From: a virus
Strand: one strand, 5' to 3'
Virus record (IMG/VR): IMGVR_UViG_3300020213_000040
Coordinates: 1 to 51,762 of that record
Length of the DNA stretch: 51,762 nucleotides
Part shown: positions 3,236 through 51,762 of the stretch, one piece after another
How positions within the stretch are numbered: position 1 is the first letter of the stretch
Layout of the letters: the number at the start of each line of letters is the position of its first letter
Made by a program: the position numbers and the translations under genes
Notes under the pieces: generated by a model
Told to the model about the DNA's origin: nothing
Seen by the model: only the letters and a program-made list of their open reading frames with translations
Databases searched by the model: none

Positions 3236-4414
3236 GTGAACCTGACCTACGAATATCGCCTGTTTACGCGCAAGGACGAAGCGCAAGCTCTCAACAATCT
3301 GCTTGAACAGGGGCGTGATGTTTACAATTGGGCGTTGGCTCAATGTAAAACTAGTTACGAAACGTCGGGTAAGCACGAAACGGGCTTGGGCCAGTGGGCG
3401 TATTTCCGCGAATGGCGCAAACAACCCGGTATTCTGCTCAATGCCAGCAGCTTGCAACAGCTTCTGCGACGGTTGGACAAGTCCTACAGCGCGTTCTTTC
3501 GTCGCATCAAAGCAGGTGAAACACCGGGACACCCACGCTTCAAACCCGCACAGCGTTTCAACAGCGTCGAGTACACCTACGGTGATGGTTGCAAGTTCAC
3601 ACCCGTAGCGGGAAACAGCGCCACGCTGTATGTGCAGAACATTGGCCACATCAAAGTCAAAATGCACCGCATTCTGCCTGAGAACGCGGTGATTAAGCAT
3701 GTTCTCATCAAGCGCAAAAACCGGAAGTGGTTCGTGTACCTGATGCTTGAACTGCCCGATATTGTCTTTGTGTCCAACGGTCTGCCTGCTGTTGGTGGTG
3801 ACATGGGTCTGCTGCGCTTGCTCACGCTCTCTGATAATACGCTGATTGACAACCCGCGCTGGCTGCGACACACGTTGAGTGAACTTCGCACCGCCCAACG
3901 GCGGTTGAGTCGTCGCAAAAAGGGCAGTCACCGACGACGGAAAGTCGCATTTCAAGTTGCACTTCTGCATGAGCATGTGTCCAAACAGCGCAAAGACTTC
4001 TGGCACAAACTCACGTTCGGTTTGGTCAACACATACGGATTGGTCGCGCTTGAAGACCTTGAACTCAAGTTTATGCTGCTCAATCGCAAGCTCTCCCTCA
4101 GTGCTCACGACGCAGGGTTGGGTATCTTCCAAAGTCTGCTGCGCTACAAAGCTGTAAAAGCTGGTTGCGCGATAGACTTGGTAGACCCCGCTTATACGTC
4201 GCAGGTGTGCTCCGGCTGCGGTTGCTTGGTTGAGAAAGCCCTGTCTGAACGTGTGCATCGCTGTCCTAATCCTGACTGCCTGCTTGTTCTTGACCGGGAT
4301 GTCAATGCGGCCCGGAATATATTGTCTCTAGCATTAAAGTCGGCGGGGACACCGCCGTCAGGCGCTAAGGTAGCGGATCGCCGCAAGCCTAGCCTGAGAA
4401 GCTCCCGTCTTTAG
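3236..4414 (+). CDS. tnpB: TnpB RNA-guided nuclease, 392 aa (first IS element)
   Basis: TnpB proteins are RuvC-type nucleases guided by RNA from the right end of the element, and they are ancestors of Cas12. The RuvC triad appears complete: Asp189 in VGGDMG, Glu273 in LVALEDLEL and Asp355 in LDRDVNAARNI. A zinc finger is also present (CSGCG ~325-329 and CPNPDC ~343-348). The length is typical. It starts at GTG 3236 with AGGGG upstream, 3 nt after tnpA. Its stop codon (4412-4414) lies inside the right-end hairpin, as usual where the guide RNA overlaps the 3' end of tnpB. It is likely functional. Confidence 0.92.
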   Translation: MNLTYEYRLFTRKDEAQALNNLLEQGRDVYNWALAQCKTSYETSGKHETGLGQWAYFREWRKQPGILLNASSLQQLLRRLDKSYSAFFRRIKAGETPGHPRFKPAQRFNSVEYTYGDGCKFTPVAGNSATLYVQNIGHIKVKMHRILPENAVIKHVLIKRKNRKWFVYLMLELPDIVFVSNGLPAVGGDMGLLRLLTLSDNTLIDNPRWLRHTLSELRTAQRRLSRRKKGSHRRRKVAFQVALLHEHVSKQRKDFWHKLTFGLVNTYGLVALEDLELKFMLLNRKLSLSAHDAGLGIFQSLLRYKAVKAGCAIDLVDPAYTSQVCSGCGCLVEKALSERVHRCPNPDCLLVLDRDVNAARNILSLALKSAGTPPSGAKVADRRKPSLRSSRL

Positions 4415-5540: not shown

Positions 5541-6665
5541 ATGAAACTGATTGCTCAACTCAAGTTGCAACCGACGCCCGAACAACACGCCTTGCTTAAG
5601 CAAACGCTTGAGACTGCCAATGCCGCCTGTAACTTCGTGAGCGACATCGCCTGGGAACAACAGGTATTTGGGCAGTTCGCGTTGCATGGGTTGTGCTACA
5701 AAGACGTTCGTCAGCGCTTTGGCTTGGGCGCGGATGTAGTTGTGCGTGTGTTCGCCAAAGTTGCCGACGCCTACAAGTTGGACAATAAAACGAAGCGCGG
5801 ATTTAAGGTTCTTGCCGCCTTCCCGTTCAACGAACGCTTGGTGTCCTACAAACTCACTCCTCAAATCGTCAGTATTTGGACGATGGGTGGACGACAGAAA
5901 ATGCCGTTTGTGTGCGGTGAACAGCAACTTGCGCTCTTGCAGGGGCTTCGTGGCGAATGCGATTTGGTTTATCGCAATGGCGAGTTCTACCTGTTCCAAA
6001 CCTGCGATGTTGAAGAAGCGCCAGAAATCGAAGCCGATGAATTTCTGGGTATCGACGTAGGTATCGCCAACATCGCGGTAGATAGTGACGAGACATTTCA
6101 TCAGGGCAAGGGCGTCAAGAATGTTCGTCACCGTCACCGCAGTCTGCGTGAAAAGCTGCAACGCAAGCAGACCGATAGCGCCCGCCGCAAGCTGAAGCGC
6201 TTGTCGGGTAAGGAACGGCGCTATGCAACCAATGTCAACCACGTTATCTCGAAGCAAATCGTGAAAACCGCTCAAGACACCGGACGCGGTATCTCCCTTG
6301 AAAATCTCAAGGGTATCCGCAAACGGGTAACGGCTCGGAAGCGCCAGCGCACGGTTCTGCATAGTTGGGCCTTCAATCAATTGCAAGGCTTTATCAAGTA
6401 CAAGGGCAAACGTGCTGGTGTGCCTGTGGTCTTTGTTGACCCGCGCAACACCAGTCGTACCTGTCCTGATTGTGGTTATGTTGATAAAGCCAATCGCAAG
6501 ACCCAAGATAAGTTCCTCTGTATTCGGTGTGGAAAAGCTGGACACGCTGATTACTTCGCTGCGATTGAAATTGGTCGCAGGGCTTTTGTCAGTAAGCCAA
6601 ACGTAGGCACGAGCGCAGAACATCGCGCTCCCGACTTACAAGCTCCCGGATTGATCCGGGAGTAA
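5541..6665 (+). CDS. tnpB: TnpB RNA-guided nuclease, 374 aa (TnpB-only element)
   Basis: RuvC residues are present: Asp172 in FLGIDVGIANIAV, Glu254 in GISLENLKGI and Asp337 in GHADYFAAIEIG. The last motif departs from the usual HADxNAAxNI (Phe in place of Asn). Zinc-finger pairs are CPDC (308-311) and CIRC (327-330). An Arg/Lys-rich segment (~195-230) is typical for RNA binding. It is only distantly similar to the first TnpB, so the two were acquired separately and did not arise by local duplication. ATG 5541 is preferred over GTG 5535 because of its distance from the -10 box. The stop lies just after the right-end hairpin. Confidence 0.88.
   Translation: MKLIAQLKLQPTPEQHALLKQTLETANAACNFVSDIAWEQQVFGQFALHGLCYKDVRQRFGLGADVVVRVFAKVADAYKLDNKTKRGFKVLAAFPFNERLVSYKLTPQIVSIWTMGGRQKMPFVCGEQQLALLQGLRGECDLVYRNGEFYLFQTCDVEEAPEIEADEFLGIDVGIANIAVDSDETFHQGKGVKNVRHRHRSLREKLQRKQTDSARRKLKRLSGKERRYATNVNHVISKQIVKTAQDTGRGISLENLKGIRKRVTARKRQRTVLHSWAFNQLQGFIKYKGKRAGVPVVFVDPRNTSRTCPDCGYVDKANRKTQDKFLCIRCGKAGHADYFAAIEIGRRAFVSKPNVGTSAEHRAPDLQAPGLIRE
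6643..6662 (+). ncRNA. Right-end hairpin, probable omega-RNA 3' part of the second element
   Basis: CTCCCGGAT-TG-ATCCGGGAG is a perfect 9-bp stem directly before the tnpB stop codon (6663-6665). By analogy with other TnpB loci the guide would be encoded by the flank starting near 6672. Confidence 0.4.
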
Positions 6666-37603: not shown

Positions 37604-38293
37604 ATGGCAAACCCTGATGGGCAAATTGGCGTTTTTGTACCTTTTGCCTTTATAGGCATTTGCGAAAGTTCCGCAGATGCGATTGTATTATCGACCATAC
37701 TTCAATGGACGAATATCAACACTGATGACCCACTACCGCAAGGCGTTTGCTGGTACGGTAACCATTTATGGGTTTCGAAAACCCACGAGGAATGGGCCGA
37801 GACGATACCCGTTGTTGTCAGCACTTTGGGTATGATTTTCCGCCGCCTAAAGAAGCAGGGGTATATTTTTTCGGAAGCCCACCGCTCGAAGCTGCACAAT
37901 GATCGCGTGGTAAATTTTGTGCGATTGAATGTGCGGTCTTTACCCTCTCTGGATGGCTACGCCTATCAAGTTCCTGTACGCGAATTGCCAGACGAACTAC
38001 CCAAACTGTCCAAGCGGGCAAGATTAAAAGCGGGGTGCGTTTATCTTATCCGGTCAGACGTGGGTTACTACAAAATCGGACGCACCGTCAACCCTGATAA
38101 CCGCATTACCACATTCGCTGTGAAACTGCCCTTCGACGTTGATTATATTTGCGTAATCGAAACGCCGGATATGTATGGGCTAGAACGTGAACTTCACCAG
38201 CGCTTTGCCAGTAAGCGCGTCAACGGTGAATGGTTTGCGCTCAACGACGACGATGTGGCGCATATCAAGTCATTGGTGGGGAAACGCGAATGA
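37604..38293 (+). CDS. Winged-helix + GIY-YIG (T5orf172-type) fusion protein, 229 aa
   Basis: The N-terminal ~115 residues resemble a replication-protein winged helix (SKTHEEWAETIPVVVSTLGMIFRRLKKQGYIFSEAHR). The C-terminal ~90 residues (AGCVYLIRSDVGYYKIGRTVNPDNRITTFAVKLPFDVDYICVIETPDMYGLERELHQRFASKRVNGEWFAL) match the T5orf172 branch of GIY-YIG: YLI, KIGRT, an Arg helix and ELHQRF with Glu. It could nick or cut DNA near the origin. The stop overlaps the Rep start (ATGA at 38290). Confidence 0.8.
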   Translation: MANPDGQIGVFVPFAFIGICESSADAIVLSTILQWTNINTDDPLPQGVCWYGNHLWVSKTHEEWAETIPVVVSTLGMIFRRLKKQGYIFSEAHRSKLHNDRVVNFVRLNVRSLPSLDGYAYQVPVRELPDELPKLSKRARLKAGCVYLIRSDVGYYKIGRTVNPDNRITTFAVKLPFDVDYICVIETPDMYGLERELHQRFASKRVNGEWFALNDDDVAHIKSLVGKRE

Positions 38294-39078
38294 GTAACGA
38301 TCCATTCGAGGGCTTCGAGGGATTCGACTATCCCCGCGAAAACTGGTCGAAATTGCCGCATGTGTTTATCGAATATTTCCTGCCAAGAATTGATACGCTG
38401 GCGGAATTGAAACTGCTGCTTTATCTCTTGCGACATACGTGGGGCTTTGACGAATACGGCATCCCCAAGCACATTACGACAGATGAGTTTCAATTTGGGC
38501 GCAAACGAAGAGATGGCAGTCGATACGACAGCGGCACAGGACTTGGCAATGAAACCGTTCGGCGCGGACTCAAAGCGGCGCTGGCACATAATCTCATTCA
38601 GGTTGTGATTGATGACACTGATAAAGGGCGCATTGAAAAGCACTACACTTTACGCATGAAACAGACCCCTCAAGATGAGGGGTCGGCACGTAGACGGCGA
38701 GGGGTGCAACCCCCAGCACCGCAGACCGCAACCCCTGCCGCAAGGGAGCGATCAGAGAAAGAAACTCTCGAAAGAAACAGGGAGAAAGAAACTCTCGAAA
38801 GAAGCAAGTTCGAGAAAAGAGTGGGGGCGGTTCTCGCAAAACTAACGCGGGCGAAAATTAAGTTCGGCAACACGGACTATCCCGATAGGCGTGTCCTCAT
38901 CAAAGGCATCATCGAGGAATACGGCTACAAGACCGTTATGATGGCAATACAGGAAGCCGAGCGCGAAAACGCCCAGTGGTGGTCATACGTGGCTATCAAA
39001 CTCGAAGCGCAGCGTCAAGTTGTACTCACCGGAGAAGACTATATCTCAGGCGCACTTGCCGACTATATCGATCACTAG
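38290..39078 (+). CDS. Plasmid-type replication initiator (DnaD/O-like), 262 aa
   Basis: ATG 38290 in an ATGA overlap is preferred to the longer in-frame start. The N-terminal ~110 residues (NWSKLPHVFIEYFLPRIDTLAELKLLLYLLRHTWGF...ITTDEFQFGRKRRDGSRYDSGTGLGNETVRRGLKAALAHNLI) are the winged helix of RepA/DnaD-like or lambda-O-like initiators. A linker with a DNA-level direct repeat (38755-38803) follows, then a helical C-terminal domain (YPDRRVLIKGIIEEYGYKTVMMAIQEAERENAQWWSYVAIKLEA) like the DnaD/DnaB_2 region. It is immediately followed by parA. Confidence 0.75.
   Translation: MSNDPFEGFEGFDYPRENWSKLPHVFIEYFLPRIDTLAELKLLLYLLRHTWGFDEYGIPKHITTDEFQFGRKRRDGSRYDSGTGLGNETVRRGLKAALAHNLIQVVIDDTDKGRIEKHYTLRMKQTPQDEGSARRRRGVQPPAPQTATPAARERSEKETLERNREKETLERSKFEKRVGAVLAKLTRAKIKFGNTDYPDRRVLIKGIIEEYGYKTVMMAIQEAERENAQWWSYVAIKLEAQRQVVLTGEDYISGALADYIDH
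38755..38803 (+). repeat. 22-bp direct repeat x2 inside the Rep gene (candidate iterons)
   Basis: 38755-38776 and 38782-38803 are identical (core GAAACTCTCGAAAG), period 27 bp. Just upstream are GC-rich GCAACCCC copies. Repeats inside an initiator gene often mark the origin. Only two full copies are present, and the period keeps the reading frame, so a protein repeat cannot be ruled out. Confidence 0.55.
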
Positions 39079-39086
39079 AGGTAAAT

Positions 39087-39884
39087 ATGTACATCGTTTC
39101 AGTTATCAATGAAAAAGGCGGCGTCGGAAAAACGACGGTTACAACTCATGTCGGAGCGGGACTAGCGGCTATGGGCTATCGTGTGATGCTGATTGACGCC
39201 GATCCGCAGGCACATACGACGTTTACGATGGGCGCGAAAAAATCAGGGCATCTTTATGACCTGCTCGTGCGTGAAGCCAGTTGGAAAGCTGTGTCTGAAG
39301 CCGTGAACCCAGCTTATTATGGTGACGACCCGGAAGCAAAGAGCCGACTGTTTCTCGTCGCGTCAAACACTGAGACGCGCAATATCGCTGGAAGCCTTCA
39401 AGAAGTTGGCGCTGGCGATACCGTATTGCGTGAACGGTTGATGGAACTAGCAGATGACATCGATGTGGTGCTGATCGACACCAGTCCGTCGCCATCCAAC
39501 TTCCACGCGATCATCTACATGGCTACTGATGCGATTCTGTATCCAACCGAATTAGAGGCACTTAGCTTCAACGGTTTGGGCGAGAGCCTCCGGCATCTCG
39601 CCCGCATCCAGAATCGGCGTATGAACGCAGGCTATGAGATGGCGAAGGTTATGGGCATCGTGCCGATGAAAACTCGGCCCAGACAAGTTGTTCATCAAGC
39701 TAACTATGAGCTGCTTTTGGAGCAGTTCAAAACCTACAAGATCTTCGAGCAGGTACAGCAGCGCGCAACATGGTCGGAAGCCAGCAAAGCGAAACAGCTA
39801 ATTTACACGTATGCTCCTCGCAGCGCGGCGACGAAAGAAGCGTGGCGGCTTGTTCAAGAGGTGAAGGCGAGGTTATCGGCATGA
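39087..39884 (+). CDS. parA: ParA-family partition ATPase, 265 aa
   Basis: The deviant Walker A is EKGGVGKTT (residues 9-17), Walker A' LIDADPQAH (~35-43) and Walker B VVLIDTSPS (~130-138). There is no N-terminal HTH, so it is a short type-Ib-like ParA without autorepressor domain. GAGGTAAAT precedes ATG 39087. It overlaps parB by 4 bp. ParA moves plasmid copies on the nucleoid and its presence argues for an extrachromosomal prophage. Confidence 0.93.
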   Translation: MYIVSVINEKGGVGKTTVTTHVGAGLAAMGYRVMLIDADPQAHTTFTMGAKKSGHLYDLLVREASWKAVSEAVNPAYYGDDPEAKSRLFLVASNTETRNIAGSLQEVGAGDTVLRERLMELADDIDVVLIDTSPSPSNFHAIIYMATDAILYPTELEALSFNGLGESLRHLARIQNRRMNAGYEMAKVMGIVPMKTRPRQVVHQANYELLLEQFKTYKIFEQVQQRATWSEASKAKQLIYTYAPRSAATKEAWRLVQEVKARLSA

Positions 39885-40999
39885 GCAAGCTCAAGCGCAT
39901 GAGAGAGAACAGCAGCAATCCGTTTGCTGAAGAGGAAACGCCAACGACGAGCAATATCAGAGACTCGGACGGAGATCTCTTTGGCAATACGGCTCAGGCT
40001 GAAGCCAAACGTGGTGAACGCCTGAAGAAGTTGTCGATCTTCGACATTGAGCCTGACCCGACACAACCCCGGCGCACTATCCCTTCAGCCGTTCGCAATC
40101 TTTGGAATGGCGCGCCGACTATGCTGGGCAGAATGTTTGCCGATTGGGAGTCACTTGCTCAACAGGAATGCGGAAATCAAGCGCCGCTCATCCGGCAACG
40201 CCTAGATGGTCAGGAGGTCGAGAGCGACGATTCACTGCCGCCGATCACCGACGCGCTGCTGAAGCTGGTCACACTTGCGATCAGAATCAAACAAGAAGGC
40301 TTGACCAATCCGATCACCGTTGTCGAATACGAGCCGAGTCGCTATCGGCTTGTCACTGGCGAACGTCGTTGGTTGGCTCATCATCTGCTGTACGCTTACA
40401 GCACCGGCGATAAGCAGTGGTCGAATATCGCCGCACAGGTCGTCAAAAGGACTGACCGATTCGCGCAGGCCAGCGAGAACACGGCTCGCGGCAATCTCAA
40501 TATGGTTGCCCGAAGTCGGCAGTGGGCATTACTCGTCATGGCACAGCACGAAGCGAGTGGCGAATATCAGTTTGCCCCCTATGGCGAGTTCGAGAAAGAT
40601 GTGGACTACTATCGGCAGGTTGGCGAACTCGCAGCGCTTGACGCGGCAGCCGTGATGAGTGCCTGTGGTGTACGAAATAAAGCCTCTCTCAGTCAGTATC
40701 GGAAGGTGTTGAATCTCTCGCCACAGGACTGGACGAGAGCCGACGATGAGAACTGGGGACGTCGGCAGATTGATGAGCTTTTAGGGGTCATCGAGGAGTC
40801 TGATGCTGAGGGAAGGTTTACCGCGGTTAACCCTCCCTCGACTAAGCACAAAAAACGTACAAAGCCAAAAGGCTTCGACGACCACCTAGCGACGTTCATT
40901 TCCTCGGCTCGAAAACACAAGGCAAAAGCCAGCGCTGACGAGCGCCGGGCAACCGCTCGACTACTTCGGCAGCTTGCCGACGAGATGGAGCAAGGCTGA
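39881..40999 (+). CDS. parB: ParB-family partition protein, 372 aa
   Basis: It starts in the ATGA overlap with parA. The N-terminal domain has SIFDIEPDPTQPRR (~52-65), then, after an unusual insertion of about 55 residues, LTNPITVVEY (141-150), GERRW (160-164) and the ParB box-like ASENTARGNLN (197-207). A central HTH (ALDAAAVMSACGVRNKASLSQYRKVLNL) and a basic C-terminal domain end it. ParB loads on parS and stimulates ParA. The insertion between the two N-terminal motifs is atypical. Confidence 0.88.
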   Translation: MSKLKRMRENSSNPFAEEETPTTSNIRDSDGDLFGNTAQAEAKRGERLKKLSIFDIEPDPTQPRRTIPSAVRNLWNGAPTMLGRMFADWESLAQQECGNQAPLIRQRLDGQEVESDDSLPPITDALLKLVTLAIRIKQEGLTNPITVVEYEPSRYRLVTGERRWLAHHLLYAYSTGDKQWSNIAAQVVKRTDRFAQASENTARGNLNMVARSRQWALLVMAQHEASGEYQFAPYGEFEKDVDYYRQVGELAALDAAAVMSACGVRNKASLSQYRKVLNLSPQDWTRADDENWGRRQIDELLGVIEESDAEGRFTAVNPPSTKHKKRTKPKGFDDHLATFISSARKHKAKASADERRATARLLRQLADEMEQG

Positions 41000-45117: not shown

Positions 45118-45148
45118 CCAAGTTCGATTTTAAGTGAGGATGAGAGAC

Positions 45149-46375
45149 ATGCCGATCAAGCGTTTTACAGAAATGAAACCGTTGGGCGCGGGACTTCCGC
45201 GTATCGCCAAGCTGTACAAAGGGGATGAGCGGCCCGAAGAAGGCAATCGTCCCGGCAAAGACCTGAACTATTTCCGTATCGAGTTCGAGGAGCCTTACGC
45301 GCATCTGCGTCCCGTTTGGGAAATGATGTACGGCAAAGAGCCAGCCGTATTCGAGAACGTGTTTTTCCCTGCACCAACCATCGACGAAGCAATGGAATCG
45401 TGGATGGAAGAATGGGTAGCTTCGAAGCGACTGCATCAATGCGACGGCGACGAGCAGCATACTTGGTACAACGCTGAACTCGGCATCCAAAGCACAGCAC
45501 GTATCCCCTGTGCCAGTCCAGCCTGCAAATGCAAGCACACGGGCCGGCTGAAGCTGTGGATGCCGGATTTCATGCAGGAAGCCGGTGTGTTCGGCTACCT
45601 CGCTCTTAACACACACAGCCAGTACGACATCTTGACGCTCGTTGGCTACATGCACGACATCCTACGTCTTCACGGACGACTCGACGGTGTGCCGTTCATT
45701 CTTGGCCGCGCACCACGCGAGGTCAGCGTTCCGAAGCCAAATGGCAAGCCCGGTGAGCGCATCAAGGTCAAAAAGTCGCTGCTCTATTTGCGGGTTACAG
45801 AGGTATTCGCACGACACATTCTTATTCCTGCGATTGCTGCCGGTGGTGCAATGCCCGCACTTCCAGCGCCGCAACCCGATCAGCTACCAACCAATGTGGC
45901 GCGTGAGTTACTTGGCGGCGGAGGCAAGCAGCGTCGTATGGGCGTAGAGCCGCCGACGCAGCAAGGGCAGGGCGAAGAAGCCGAAACGCCAGTTTCGTTC
46001 CTCGTCGATCTGACGCGCCGCACGAAATTCCTCGCGTGGGCCAAGACGCAACTCCGGCTAAACGATGCAGACGTTTATAGGGCGTTGAACATCGTCCATG
46101 CCATGTCGAATGATGGTGTGGCAATGGGGGATTGGGACGCTTTTGTCGGCAGTGAAAAGCTCGCTATGTCCGCATGTGTCGCAGCCGCAGGCCGCTATGA
46201 CGCAGATGAGATCAACGCACTGACGAGCAGCTCGGCGCTGAAGCTCAAAGAGGAAACGCGCCACGAACTGTATGAACTCACCTGCGATATTGCCGAACGC
46301 TACCAATCACGGGAGGTCGATGAAAGCGACGAGATCCTTGATGCCGAGATTCTTGAGGAAGAGCCGGAAGCATGA
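45149..46375 (+). CDS. Phage Gp3/recombination-directionality-factor-like protein, 408 aa
   Basis: ATG 45149 is preferred over in-frame GTG 45134. The pattern PLGAGLPRIAKLYKGDE..., a Cys/His cluster (QCDGDEQHTWY...IPCASPACKCKHTGRLKLWMPDF), then GVFGYLALNTHSQYDILTLVGYMHDILRL and a strand with GRAPREVSVP matches a phage family whose best-known members are the RDFs of serine-integrase phages. No integrase is present here, so it more likely acts in replication or ssDNA handling. Confidence 0.55.
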   Translation: MPIKRFTEMKPLGAGLPRIAKLYKGDERPEEGNRPGKDLNYFRIEFEEPYAHLRPVWEMMYGKEPAVFENVFFPAPTIDEAMESWMEEWVASKRLHQCDGDEQHTWYNAELGIQSTARIPCASPACKCKHTGRLKLWMPDFMQEAGVFGYLALNTHSQYDILTLVGYMHDILRLHGRLDGVPFILGRAPREVSVPKPNGKPGERIKVKKSLLYLRVTEVFARHILIPAIAAGGAMPALPAPQPDQLPTNVARELLGGGGKQRRMGVEPPTQQGQGEEAETPVSFLVDLTRRTKFLAWAKTQLRLNDADVYRALNIVHAMSNDGVAMGDWDAFVGSEKLAMSACVAAAGRYDADEINALTSSSALKLKEETRHELYELTCDIAERYQSREVDESDEILDAEILEEEPEA

Positions 46376-46871: not shown

Positions 46872-47479
46872 GCGAAATAGTGATGGATGCGTTTGAGGTC
46901 ATTGAGCAGGCGGCCAAAGCAGGCGATGACATTTGGGAAATGGCTATCGGGGCAGGGCTTCAGGCGCATGAAGATATGGATACCGGACGCTGGCTCATCG
47001 GTGATCTTTCCCTTCTTGTAAGCAAGCAATACGGCGAACACCGCATTGAAGATTTCGCCAAAAGCATCAAGGTCGAGGTCGGGCGAGCGAAGGAATATCG
47101 GACAGTGTGCCGGTTCTGGAGAAAATCGGTACGTACCGATTTTCTGGCAGATCGCCCGAATGTGACCTATTCGCACCTGCGAATCGCCATGCGCTTGAAG
47201 ATGCTGGAGAAGGCGATGGATTTCATTGAGGAGTGCAGCGATAGCGACTGGACAGCGGAATTTGCCCGCCTCGAACTGAATAGGCGGCTCGGCAAACCTG
47301 TTCCGCCGCCGCGAGTATTGGATGCTCAGGCAAATCTAAGACTCATCGACTCGAAGACCTTCACCCTGACACTTGAAGCCCTGTCCTTCATCGTTGGCGA
47401 TGGGCTAGGCATCGTTGATGGTAAGAGCGTTCGCATCGTCATGTACGAGCTGTCGAAGGATGAAAACGATGCTGTTTAA
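46868..47479 (+). CDS. Hypothetical protein, 203 aa
   Basis: GTG 46868 in a GTGA overlap is preferred over GTG 46856. Helical, with IEDFAKSIKVEVGRAKEYRTVCRFW and PNVTYSHLRIAMRLKMLEKAMDFIEECSDSDWTAEFARLELNRRLGK, a plan seen in some phage and plasmid replication-associated proteins. No family can be named. It overlaps the helicase by 11 bp. Confidence 0.55.
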   Translation: MSEIVMDAFEVIEQAAKAGDDIWEMAIGAGLQAHEDMDTGRWLIGDLSLLVSKQYGEHRIEDFAKSIKVEVGRAKEYRTVCRFWRKSVRTDFLADRPNVTYSHLRIAMRLKMLEKAMDFIEECSDSDWTAEFARLELNRRLGKPVPPPRVLDAQANLRLIDSKTFTLTLEALSFIVGDGLGIVDGKSVRIVMYELSKDENDAV

Positions 47480-49190
47480 TGAGAAACAGTACCAACCGCA
47501 GCGTTTGCGGGAGTATCAGGAAAAGGCCGTCGCTGCTATTCAACACGCATGGGACTCTGGCGATCCTGCACCGCTCGCAGCGCTGGCAACCGGCGCTGGC
47601 AAAACCACCATTCTGGCCCAGCTTCTCGTTGAGACCGTGACACCGATGATTCATCGTGCGCTGGTCGTTGGTCATACTGAGGAGATCGTGACCCAGCTTC
47701 ACGAGCGGGTTATCAACCAGTTCGGCGGAGAACTCAACCACTACTTCGGCGACGATTTCGCACCCGGCATCGGCATCGTGATGGCTGAACAGGATGCCGC
47801 CGATGCGCGTATTGTGGTGGCGACACGTCAGTCCCTCCATAAGAAACGACTGGCGAAGCTGCTCGAACACGGCGCTTTCGATATTCTGATTATCGACGAA
47901 GCACATCACGCACTCGCCGATAACAGCTACGGAAGCATCAAAGAAACGCTGACCGAAGCAAACCCGCTTTTGCGAACAGCAGGTTTCACCGCTACGCCGA
48001 AGCGCACAGACAAAGAAGCGCTGGGCAGCTTGTTCACATCGATCTGCTATCAATGGCTGATTCCTGAAGGGGTTGGCTCCGGCTATCTCGTACCAGCTAC
48101 CCGGCTGAAGGTCAGCACAAAAGTCGATGTCAGCGATTTAAGAACACAGAAGGGCGATTACGAGCAGAGCAAGCTGATCTCGGCTCTCGACACTGCTAAC
48201 TGGCGCGACCTGTGCGTGAATGCCTATCAGCAGTACATCGCGCCTTCTAACCGCATGGCATTAGCGTTCCTTCCCAATGTAGCGATGAGCCAGAATTTCG
48301 CGGCAGCGCTGCGGGAGATCGGGGTGGCAGCCGCGCACATCGACGGCGAGACACCCAAAGAGGAGCGGCGGCGTATCCTCGCGCAGTATGCAGCGGGCGA
48401 GATCCGCATCATCTCTAACTGCATGGTCTTTACCGAGGGCTTCGATTCACCTCAAACCAGCGCAATTTTATTGGCGCGTCCGACACGGCAGTCCACTTTA
48501 TTTACGCAAATCATCGGGCGTGGTCTACGTCCATATCCCGGCAAACACGACTGCCTGATCGTCGATATGACAGTGGTGGACACAAAGGCTTTGGAGGTCG
48601 GAACTCTGTTGGGGCGGTTGATCTCATGCCCGGAGTGCAAAGTCGAGTTCTACGCAGCGTTGAAGTGCTGCCCACAGTGTGGCGCGGAACGCAAGATCAG
48701 CCTCCGCGAAGCCTACGAGCGCGATCTGTTCGTTGGCGATGAGAACGGCGGTAGCAAACCCGGTCAAGGTCTGTTCGCCGATTATCAGCCGATGTTCGAG
48801 AAGGCGTTTGCAGCGTGGTATCGCGGGGCAGATGGTTTCTTCTCCTGTACGTTGAGTTTCGAAGATGGCGCGCTGGTGATCGTGCCGCCGCTGCAAGACA
48901 ACCTCTACCGCCTCGTGCATGTCCCCAAGATCAAAGACGCACCTTCGCAAGTGTTGGCGCGCAATGATGACCTAACGGCGCTGATGTTGGACGCCGACGA
49001 GCAGGTGCAGCAGCGATCCGAAGCCAGCATTACACAGAAAGATGCGTTCTGGCGCGGAGATCCGCCGTCGCCAGCGCAGATCAATTTATTGAGCAAGTTG
49101 GGGGTAGTCATACCCGATGGTTTATCGAAGGGTGCGGCGAGTCAGTTGATAACGCATACGCTGGCTGTGCGCCGCTTGGTCATGGAGTAA
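47469..49190 (+). CDS. SF2 DEAH-type helicase with zinc ribbon, 573 aa
   Basis: AAGGATG precedes ATG 47469. Motifs: LREYQEKAVAAI (Q-like), ATGAGKTT (Walker A, 40-47), DEAH (143-146), TAGFTATPKR (motif III), FTEGFDSPQTSAILLARPT (V) and QIIGRGLRP (VI). A zinc ribbon (CPEC...CPQCG, ~396-417) follows, then a C-terminal domain without motif. This resembles UvsW/RadD-like helicases. A role in replication restart or origin opening is likely. Confidence 0.9.
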   Translation: MLFNEKQYQPQRLREYQEKAVAAIQHAWDSGDPAPLAALATGAGKTTILAQLLVETVTPMIHRALVVGHTEEIVTQLHERVINQFGGELNHYFGDDFAPGIGIVMAEQDAADARIVVATRQSLHKKRLAKLLEHGAFDILIIDEAHHALADNSYGSIKETLTEANPLLRTAGFTATPKRTDKEALGSLFTSICYQWLIPEGVGSGYLVPATRLKVSTKVDVSDLRTQKGDYEQSKLISALDTANWRDLCVNAYQQYIAPSNRMALAFLPNVAMSQNFAAALREIGVAAAHIDGETPKEERRRILAQYAAGEIRIISNCMVFTEGFDSPQTSAILLARPTRQSTLFTQIIGRGLRPYPGKHDCLIVDMTVVDTKALEVGTLLGRLISCPECKVEFYAALKCCPQCGAERKISLREAYERDLFVGDENGGSKPGQGLFADYQPMFEKAFAAWYRGADGFFSCTLSFEDGALVIVPPLQDNLYRLVHVPKIKDAPSQVLARNDDLTALMLDADEQVQQRSEASITQKDAFWRGDPPSPAQINLLSKLGVVIPDGLSKGAASQLITHTLAVRRLVME

Positions 49191-49194
49191 AAGC

Positions 49195-50358
49195 GTGAGT
49201 TCAAAGATTCTGCCGAACACATTTATGAGTTTTAACCTCTACGTCGATGTGGCGATGGAACTGCTCACACCGGAAGAATACACGGTGCTTTCATACGCGA
49301 CCCGTCATATCCTCGGCTGGCAGGATAAGGTCAACAAACGACGTGGATTTATCAGCCTAACGATGTTTGAAGGTGGCTTCAGCACTGGTGAGGGGACTCA
49401 CTTCGGTGGTACTGGACTAGGCCGCGCCACGTTGCTCAAGGCGCTGGATGGACTGACACAGGCGAATTTGCTAGTCAAAATCGGTGAGCCGACAGCTGAT
49501 GGACAAGAGTGGGAACTCGGTGAAGAAATTCGTTGGGACTATTTACTTGCCCGTCAAGCGGCTAAAGACGAGCAGAATCGGCTTAAAACCGAAAAGGCGC
49601 GTAGTACCCGAAAAGCCCGCCAAGTGGTTAGTCCCACAAACCAGCAGGTGGTTAGTCCCACAAACCAGCAGGTGGTTAGTCCCACAAACCAGCAGCGGTT
49701 AGTCCCACAAACCAGTGCTGGTTTGTCGCACAAACTGAATCAAAGACATCTTCAAAGACACCTTCAAAACCATATTGCGCCTACCGGCGCACCGGCTTCT
49801 TCCATCACAGACGAAACGGGACTATATCCTTGCACATCAGCCGACATAGTGGCTCTCATCGGCGCATGGTGGGACTGGACACCGCGTCGGCCAACGAAAC
49901 GCGGGCAGGTCATTGAGTCAAAGCAGCATTTTGCTAATAAGACCAACCGCGAATACGCGCAGAACCTCGTCCAGCGCGGGGTGCTGCCTGCCGACTTCAT
50001 TCGCTGCTTGGGCGAGATTCGCAACGATGAGAACTCGCGCCTGCACGATAAGGAGATGACCTTCTGCTATGCCGGGGAAGTCGTCGAGGAGTGGGTGCAG
50101 GAAGATCGCGCAGAGAACTGGTACACCGAAGATGCGCCGCGCATCACGCCGCGTAAGCCGGATGTCGCGGTCAATATGGGCGAGATCGGCGAGGGCGATA
50201 ACCTGCTGGAGCGGCTCGCCAATGACCCGACTGTGATCGTCGATGTTCCTGCGCCGTACATCTCCCCACATGAAGCGAGTGAAGCTGAAGACGATGAGAG
50301 CGGCGAATTCTCTGCCGACGATGCCACACTGCTGGCGGAACTGGGGCTGCCGCTATGA
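49195..50358 (+). CDS. Phage replication initiator (lambda-O-like) with origin iterons inside, 387 aa
   Basis: Start GTG 49195. The N-terminal ~120 residues (FMSFNLYVDVAMELLTPEEYTVLSYATRHILGWQDKVNKRRGFISLTMFEGG...GLGRATLLKALDGLTQANLLVKIG) form the winged helix of O/DnaD-type initiators. A linker with VVSPTNQQ repeats is the translation of DNA iterons (49626-49737). The C-terminal half may bind the helicase (SKQHFANKTNREYAQNLVQRGVLPADFIRCLGEI) and is acidic at its end. The stop overlaps the dnaB start. Confidence 0.82.
   Translation: MSSKILPNTFMSFNLYVDVAMELLTPEEYTVLSYATRHILGWQDKVNKRRGFISLTMFEGGFSTGEGTHFGGTGLGRATLLKALDGLTQANLLVKIGEPTADGQEWELGEEIRWDYLLARQAAKDEQNRLKTEKARSTRKARQVVSPTNQQVVSPTNQQVVSPTNQQRLVPQTSAGLSHKLNQRHLQRHLQNHIAPTGAPASSITDETGLYPCTSADIVALIGAWWDWTPRRPTKRGQVIESKQHFANKTNREYAQNLVQRGVLPADFIRCLGEIRNDENSRLHDKEMTFCYAGEVVEEWVQEDRAENWYTEDAPRITPRKPDVAVNMGEIGEGDNLLERLANDPTVIVDVPAPYISPHEASEAEDDESGEFSADDATLLAELGLPL
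49626..49737 (+). repeat. Origin iterons: four 19-bp copies plus an inverted copy
   Basis: GGTTAGTCCCACAAACCAG occurs at 49626-49644, 49650-49668, 49674-49692 and 49697-49715. The spacing is 24, 24 and 23 bp, so the fourth copy is in another reading frame (VVSPTNQ becomes RLVPQTS). ACAAACCAG-TG-CTGGTTTGT then gives a perfect inverted repeat (49707-49726). Repeats conserved despite a frame change are selected as DNA. This is the expected layout of a lambda-type origin within its initiator gene. Confidence 0.85.
49740..49775 (+). repeat. Three tandem 12-mers beside the iterons (candidate unwinding element)
   Basis: TCAAAGACATCT (49740-49751), TCAAAGACACCT (49752-49763), TCAAAACCATAT (49764-49775). 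AT-richer than the surroundings and directly after the iterons; three short tandem units recall the DnaA-type unwinding 13-mers. Confidence 0.6.
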
Positions 50359-51762
50359 ACAACCAAACAACATTGGCACAGCGGGCGAATCTCCCGCCTT
50401 ACAGTCAAGAAGCTGAAGAAGCGGTCATCGGCGCGATCATCAGTAATCCCGGAGCGCTGCATGATGTCGCCGCGTTCTTGGAGTCTAAGGGCTTTTATCT
50501 GCTACGCCATCAGCACATTTGGAACGCGCTGATTCGTCTCGACGAACGCGGCGAACCGATTGATTTGCTGACCGTCAGCGAAGAACTTAAGAACATGGGC
50601 GTATTGGACGAGATCGGCAGCGTTGCTTATCTGATGCAGCTCGTCAACAACACGCCGACCTCGATACATGCGGAGGCTTACGGGCAGCTCGTCGTTCGCA
50701 CCGCGATCCGTCGGCACATGCTCCGGGTAGGCGACGAAATTAAAGCGCTGGCACTGAATGGCGAAATCACCATCCAGCAAGCCTATCTGGAAGGCTTGCA
50801 GCGTTACGATGCTATTCAAGTGCATGACCGCCAGCAGTTCCTACCCGGCTCACTCTCGATCCAAAGCTACGATGAGACGCTCGAAGACCTTATCAGACGC
50901 AATCGGGCTGGCGAAATGCTCGGCTATCCGCTTCCGCCTGCGTTGAAACGATTGTCTGAAGCGCTTCCGGTGCTGCTGCCCGGACATCTGGTCGTCGTGT
51001 CCGGGACTTCGGGCAGCGGCAAATCGGCGCTGATGGAGCAGCTCGCGGAGTGGTACGCCAGTCTCGGTTTGTTGTGCTATTACGCGCATACCGAAATGAG
51101 TACCAACGATTTGCTGCACCGCCGCATGGCGCGACATTCGGGCATTCCATTTCATCTGCTGGCGACTGGCAGCATCCAAGACGCTCAGTATCCGACGCTG
51201 CTCGATGCTGATGTGGAGATCAAGAAGTTCACGACCAACATCGCCTATCACTGGCTGCCGGATGTGGAGTTCTCGGTACTGGCGACTCAGATGCGCCGTG
51301 CTGCCGAGCATGGCGTGAAGATCTTCTTCCTCGATCACTTTCAGGATGTGAAGCCGCCTTCAAAGGGGACAAGCGATGTTCGCGCTTTCGAGGAAATGTG
51401 CGTGTGGCTGAACGCCTTCGCCGAGCATCGTCATGTGCTGGTGATCGTCGCCAGTCAGCAAAACCAGCGCGGCGATACCAAGTGGACGAAAAAGCTCACC
51501 GAAAAAGCGAGCGTTTGGATCGGTGTCAAGCGCGAACGGCTGCTCGGCGAGTACGTCTACACGCATGAGGGTGTTGAAGTCCGGGCGCAAAAAGGTGAGG
51601 ACACGCCTGTCGTCGATGTGTCGATCAACAAAGCGCGTTTCGGCAAGAAGGCGAAGCTCAAGATGATTTATCACGGGCCGCGCTTCATGTACCTCGATAT
51701 GTCGCAGGTGAAGCTGCCGAAACCAATCAGCATCGAGAGCGGCAAGATCATTCCGATGGATG
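50355..51762 (+). CDS. DnaB-like replicative helicase, N-terminal and main part (continues at 1-184)
   Basis: It starts in the ATGA overlap with the initiator. The N-terminal domain (PYSQEAEEAVIGAIISNPGALHDVAAFLESKGFYLLRHQHIWNALIRLDERGEPIDLLTVSEEL) is the DnaB helical domain. Walker A is GTSGSGKS (217-224), Walker B-like IFFLDHFQDV, and a QQNQRG-type motif near residue 365 is present. The gene crosses the contig ends and totals 486 residues, normal for DnaB. The initiator presumably loads it at the adjacent iterons. Confidence 0.93.
   Translation, partial: MNNQTTLAQRANLPPYSQEAEEAVIGAIISNPGALHDVAAFLESKGFYLLRHQHIWNALIRLDERGEPIDLLTVSEELKNMGVLDEIGSVAYLMQLVNNTPTSIHAEAYGQLVVRTAIRRHMLRVGDEIKALALNGEITIQQAYLEGLQRYDAIQVHDRQQFLPGSLSIQSYDETLEDLIRRNRAGEMLGYPLPPALKRLSEALPVLLPGHLVVVSGTSGSGKSALMEQLAEWYASLGLLCYYAHTEMSTNDLLHRRMARHSGIPFHLLATGSIQDAQYPTLLDADVEIKKFTTNIAYHWLPDVEFSVLATQMRRAAEHGVKIFFLDHFQDVKPPSKGTSDVRAFEEMCVWLNAFAEHRHVLVIVASQQNQRGDTKWTKKLTEKASVWIGVKRERLLGEYVYTHEGVEVRAQKGEDTPVVDVSINKARFGKKAKLKMIYHGPRFMYLDMSQVKLPKPISIESGKIIPMD
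51632..51762. repeat. Terminal overlap of a circular contig (right copy)
   Basis: This is the right-hand copy of the end overlap; 51637-51762 equals 6-131 exactly. Merging the copies gives a 51,631-bp circle and joins the helicase gene that starts at 50355 to its stop codon at 182-184. Confidence 0.9.

Follow-up and report, generated by a model that had tools for sequence, protein, structure and literature searches.

A predicted O-type replication origin within the initiator gene of a probable phage-plasmid

In the middle of a gene of an uncultured virus lie short, near-identical DNA repeats that are read in different codon frames, which raises the question of what has kept them alike. The gene belongs to IMG/VR virus record IMGVR_UViG_3300020213_000040, of which positions 1 to 51,762 were analysed; this whole 51.8 kb stretch is called the window below. 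The record ends have 126 identical bases in common (6–131 and 51637–51762, offset 5). Since an overlap of this length is the signature of a circular assembly at k = 127, the record is a circular assembly of ~51,631 bp, though its IMG/VR class is linear. Genes for terminase, portal and major head protein are found together with those for the partition proteins ParA and ParB, a repressor-like XRE gene and a second initiator-like gene (Table 1), and a search of the record for tyrosine or large serine recombinases found none. Partition genes, repressor, second initiator and the lack of a recombinase make up the outfit of a phage-plasmid, and as the record is also circular, it is a probable member of that group.

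The initial annotation had described four 19-bp repeats with spacings of 24, 24 and 23 bp, followed by a perfect inverted repeat and an inverted copy. The repeats and these spacings were recovered, but the count has to be raised to five: a further copy starts at 49719, giving spacings of 24, 24, 23 and 23 bp and an array at 37–47% of the gene length. Each 19-mer is an imperfect palindrome of the form TGGTT-a-GT-ccc-AC-a-AACCA, self-complementary at 14 of 19 positions in copies 1–3. Because imperfect palindromes fit the consensus in both directions, the fifth iteron had escaped notice as a direct copy; it shows four mismatches to the consensus directly and five when inverted, an about equal fit. 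The perfect inverted repeat is real, while the separate inverted copy was dropped as an element, its sequence being that of iteron 5. TRF returned the iteron region as the top-scoring tandem array in the window, on the + strand of which no other site lies within six mismatches of the 19-mer.

Table 1. Positions of the predicted origin elements and of the associated genes in the window.
Feature	Positions	Strand	Codon frame	Remarks
Iteron 1	49625..49643	+	1	TGGTTAGTCCCACAAACCA
Iteron 2	49649..49667	+	1	TGGTTAGTCCCACAAACCA, identical to iteron 1
Iteron 3	49673..49691	+	1	TGGTTAGTCCCACAAACCA, identical to iteron 1
Iteron 4	49696..49714	+	0	CGGTTAGTCCCACAAACCA, 1 mismatch
Iteron 5	49719..49737	+	2	TGGTTTGTCGCACAAACTG, 4 mismatches
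Perfect inverted repeat	49707..49726	.		ACAAACCAG-TG-CTGGTTTGT; right half of iteron 4 facing left half of iteron 5
Three 12-mers	49740..49775	+		TCAAAGACATCT / TCAAAGACACCT / TCAAAACCATAT; probable DNA unwinding element
Replication initiator gene	49195..50358	+		387 aa; PHROG and fold matches
DnaB-type replicative helicase	50355..51762	+		Pfam DnaB 9e-30, DnaB_C 5e-17; PHROG 19 5e-46
DNA helicase (ResIII/DEAD type)	47415..49190	+		Upstream neighbour of initiator; PHROG 16 1.8e-78; Pfam ResIII 2.6e-26
Second initiator-type gene, winged-helix/DnaD-like	38290-39078			Directly before ParA; 25-bp repeat pair 38755-38806 in linker
ParA and ParB partition genes	38976-40999			

The first three copies encode VVSPTNQ(Q), the fourth RLVPQTSA and the fifth AGLSHKLN. 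Because the repeat is read in all three codon frames, it is kept as DNA and not as peptide. This was set against a recoding null in which the peptide was held fixed and the codons were redrawn from the phage's own usage. In none of 200,000 recodings were copies 4 and 5 both reproduced as well as in the real sequence. In a second test the best off-frame 19-mer identity of the repeats was 19/19, while 3000 null sequences gave no more than 15; when the whole record was scanned off-frame, 17 was reached at one other place only, near 4.5 kb. The earlier claim that the last spacing breaks the reading frame while the DNA sequence is retained is thus upheld, the recoding tests rejecting chance.

The three tandem AT-richer 12-mers noted before do follow the repeats, the third being identical to the first at 9 of 12 positions, and from its sequence this array is a probable DNA unwinding element. 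The 50-mer starting at 49728 is 64% AT, and its instability stands at the 99.97th percentile within 45–51.7 kb and the 99.2nd over the record; the AT-rich element is just 62–64% AT, and some 15 other sites in the record are equally unstable. GC skew is positive almost throughout the record, with no switch near the predicted origin, and is uninformative.

The product of the gene around the repeats has an N-terminal domain of the winged-helix type (about residues 15–140), followed by a linker (about residues 143–195) which the predicted origin DNA encodes. Residues 18–140 were modelled with a pLDDT of about 80. The nearest solved folds are the N-terminal domains of plasmid initiators, namely 4pql (Z 8.6), 4pt7 (Z 8.3) and 5kbj (Z 7.9) by VIA-align, values close to the background stated for models of this kind. 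Among viral models, one fold match was to a protein named "Bacteriophage lambda, GpO, N-terminal" (E 3.3e-5). The linker was modelled at low confidence, as expected of a disordered stretch; the C-terminal part, without a family match, gave a model (pLDDT under 50) too poor for a fold search. A Pfam search of the whole protein gave no match at E up to 0.1, RepA_N (PF06970) included. It matches PHROG 678, "replication initiation O-like", weakly (E 0.0037), and its relatives match O-like PHROG families clearly (3.9e-8 and 1.3e-7), which places it in the phage O-like family weakly by itself and clearly through these relatives. The protein had no match in an annotated phage collection even at E 1, no relatives were found in genome_contigs, and the use of DnaB and the upstream helicase as search anchors yielded no additional related initiators. 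Directly downstream, the start of the DnaB gene overlaps the initiator stop codon, about 580 bp past the repeats, and its reading frame closes across the circular join, where the last codons fall. Together with the O-like matches this agrees with the initial annotation, which had an initiator gene surrounding the repeats and DnaB next to it.

Comparison with related phages, recommended there, spoke for the proposed origin. The initiator of L001 (IMG/VR 3300033067_001588, a 49-kb contig, possibly incomplete) is 66% identical to that of the window across the first 121 residues. At the same place it has five diverged iterons of the TGGTAAAGCTGACATACCA type, with spacings of 27, 23, 23 and 23 in frames 2,2,1,0,2, and one in 3000 recodings was as good in the off-frame test. 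The linker peptide is unlike that of the window, while the DNA repeat pattern is kept. Two further relatives, L004 and L005, have an initiator N-terminal domain about 44–47% identical to the window's and carry four copies of CAGTTGAACAG (spacings 19, 24 and 23; frames 0,1,1,0); the repeats of L004 are less decisive off-frame, 72 of 3000 recodings being as good. Repeats are therefore kept across differing reading frames in three lineages. A peptide repeat retained after loss of the DNA repeat was not seen among these relatives, in which the reverse was found. The iteron site and the DNA-binding domain have thus changed in step, in the manner expected of a protein and the DNA it binds. When viral_contigs was scanned for two consecutive window-type iterons, L001 came up again, with two unrelated repetitive genes (L076, L077), and a scan for L004-type iterons gave L004, L005 and unrelated low-complexity repeats only (L081, L083, L085-L087).

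L004 and L005 are 98.8% identical across 568 bp (5975–6542 in each), a stretch comprising the DNA-binding domain and the iterons. The identity ends at L004 position 6543, just past the iterons and the AT-rich tract, in a sharp recombination junction. Past this point no relationship remains between the C-terminal domains, and the adjacent helicases also differ: L004 has DnaB, L005 a protein with Toprim and DnaB_C. In the same way, the window and L001 have the N-terminal part and iterons in common and not the C-terminus. In L001 the latter (L001:3522-3752) bears a weak resemblance to DnaA domain I (TIGR00362 positions 1–74, E 0.0064; Pfam DnaA_N, E 0.097), the part of DnaA which contacts DnaB. 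Neither DnaB nor DnaB_C was found in the possibly incomplete 49-kb contig, and its C-terminus is a possible recruiter of host DnaB. The exchange of modules in both pairs favours, though it does not prove, separate tasks for the two ends of the protein: the N-terminus would read the iterons and the C-terminus recruit the helicase. We tentatively suggest, as one possibility, that in this initiator family the DNA-binding domain and the iterons it reads form a fixed cassette, which recombination immediately downstream of the origin joins to exchangeable C-terminal recruiters of phage DnaB, of a primase-helicase or, in the DnaA domain I-like form, of host DnaB. If so, a junction placed where the origin ends would mean that the site always travels with its reader.

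A lambda-type origin is described in PMC7466680, and the annotated ori of phage lambda (J02459) was put through the same off-frame test as a control. Its four iterons, at 39–48% of gene O, have spacings of 20, 24 and 23 and frames 2,1,1,0, and eight in 3000 recodings were as good. As in the window, the lambda origin lies mid-gene in the gene of an initiator with an O-like N-terminal DNA-binding domain, with quasi-palindromic iterons of ~18–19 bp placed 20–24 bp apart in three frames and an AT-rich tract straight after them. AT-richer DNA directly after the iterons is also present in the relatives. AAAGACAC follows the iterons in all three phages: lambda and L001 read it as KDT in one codon frame, the window as QRH in a different one. 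This common match is short and only suggestive. Unlike lambda, the window has five iterons of unrelated sequence, a less extreme AT tract (64% AT) and a C-terminal domain that matches no O family. Its neighbour gene encodes DnaB itself, whereas that of lambda encodes a P-type helicase loader. With DnaB next door and no P-type loader, helicase recruitment would not follow lambda's own route, and this is not a lambdoid O-P replicon. RepA_N plasmid initiators (pSK41/pTZ2162 RepA; PLE RepA, PMC7145576) provide the nearest solved fold for the N-terminal winged-helix-type domain, at Z values close to background, and as here they combine semi-palindromic iterons with a variable C-terminal domain (PMC7145576). 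They differ in that the window initiator lacks a Pfam RepA_N match and the phage has its own DnaB.

We conclude that 49625–49775 is very probably a replication origin of the phage, most likely that for lytic growth, contained in the gene of its own initiator. The reasons are the five near-identical 19-mers in three frames, the iterons of the relatives, the lambda control, the AT tract, the exchange of modules at the end of the repeat and AT block, the O-like matches and the adjacent DnaB; the repeats in three lineages, the control and the exchange in particular bear out the lambda-type origin first proposed for this locus. The predicted origin is of the O type, inside the initiator gene and with DnaB adjoining, which is a kind already known, the case being new.

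Among the other explanations, the one that survives best is that these are sites through which the initiator autoregulates or controls copy number, with replication beginning at another place, for example at the second initiator gene by ParA/ParB. That gene does carry a pair of linker repeats (Table 1), and an unstable stretch lies at 39064. We nevertheless think this improbable, since the repeats are mid-gene and not at a promoter, they are followed by a 12-mer array needless for a regulatory cluster and by a helicase gene, and in L004 and L005 the block was swapped as a unit with the DNA-binding domain. The second gene is a candidate plasmid-phase initiator and origin, and could carry another origin; its structural model (mean pLDDT 50) was too poor for a fold search. 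If the virus is a phage-plasmid, lytic growth would depend on the predicted origin at 49.7 kb and maintenance on the second initiator-like gene. Phage P1 also has its lytic origin inside an initiator gene, repL, together with a plasmid-type replication/partition module, although its initiator is believed to belong to another protein family. Relatives of the second initiator (L088, L089) have linker repeats about 18–21 bp apart, and by inspection that of L089 precedes a DnaB-like helicase ORF. Directly before the second initiator, gene 37604–38293 encodes a DnaD-like N-terminal half followed by a T5orf172/MUG113 nuclease-type domain (PF13455, PF10544).

It is less probable still that the repeats are a neutral minisatellite, produced by tandem duplication within a disordered linker and irrelevant to replication. 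The low-confidence linker model would suit this, and copies 1–3, being exact in-frame tandem units of 24 bp, could by themselves be a recent duplication. Simple duplication does not account for copies 4 and 5, each of which lies in another frame and has diverged on its own while the 19-mer at its core was conserved; moreover, the corresponding position in L001 and in L004/L005 is occupied by a different repeat, again with 23–24 bp spacing, and the synonymous-recoding null is rejected. We regard as highly improbable the idea that the peptide VVSPTNQ is selected in the linker and the DNA similarity is a by-product: three units are identical (VVSPTNQQ), but the fourth and fifth copies encode different peptides in the other two frames, and L001, at 66% identity, has a quite different linker with the DNA pattern kept. 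An RNA-level element in early mRNA, whether a structure or terminator-like hairpins, is just as improbable. The RNA of the segment does fold better than its shuffled versions (z -3.7), but tandem palindromic sites in DNA bring this about by themselves, and a T-run is lacking; the spacing, the AT-rich flank and the surrounding genes agree with an origin, and lambda's DNA-level origin has the same layout.

Returning to the origin, the following course of initiation is envisaged. The N-terminal winged-helix-type domain would bind each quasi-palindromic 19-mer, probably as a dimer, and occupation of all five iterons, 23–24 bp or about two helical turns apart, may give an O-some-like complex. The resulting strain on the adjoining AT-richer 12-mers would lead to melting, and the C-terminal domain could then bring the phage's own DnaB to the open strands. 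The predicted origin has been placed to within about 150 bp from sequence alone in an uncultured, probable phage-plasmid, and the lambda layout recurs in lineages whose iterons have no sequence in common with lambda's. The rule applied, to look in O-like genes for repeats that persist from one codon frame to another, is automatable for other uncultured phages.

Two further genes in the window may be mentioned. That at 45134–46375 encodes a Gp3-like protein (recombination directionality factor-like, PF18897, 7e-20), yet no serine integrase was found. The other, at 3236–4414, is of the TnpB/IS605 OrfB family, and its product shows ~40% identity to TnpB of Paenibacillus larvae and of Thermus plasmids.
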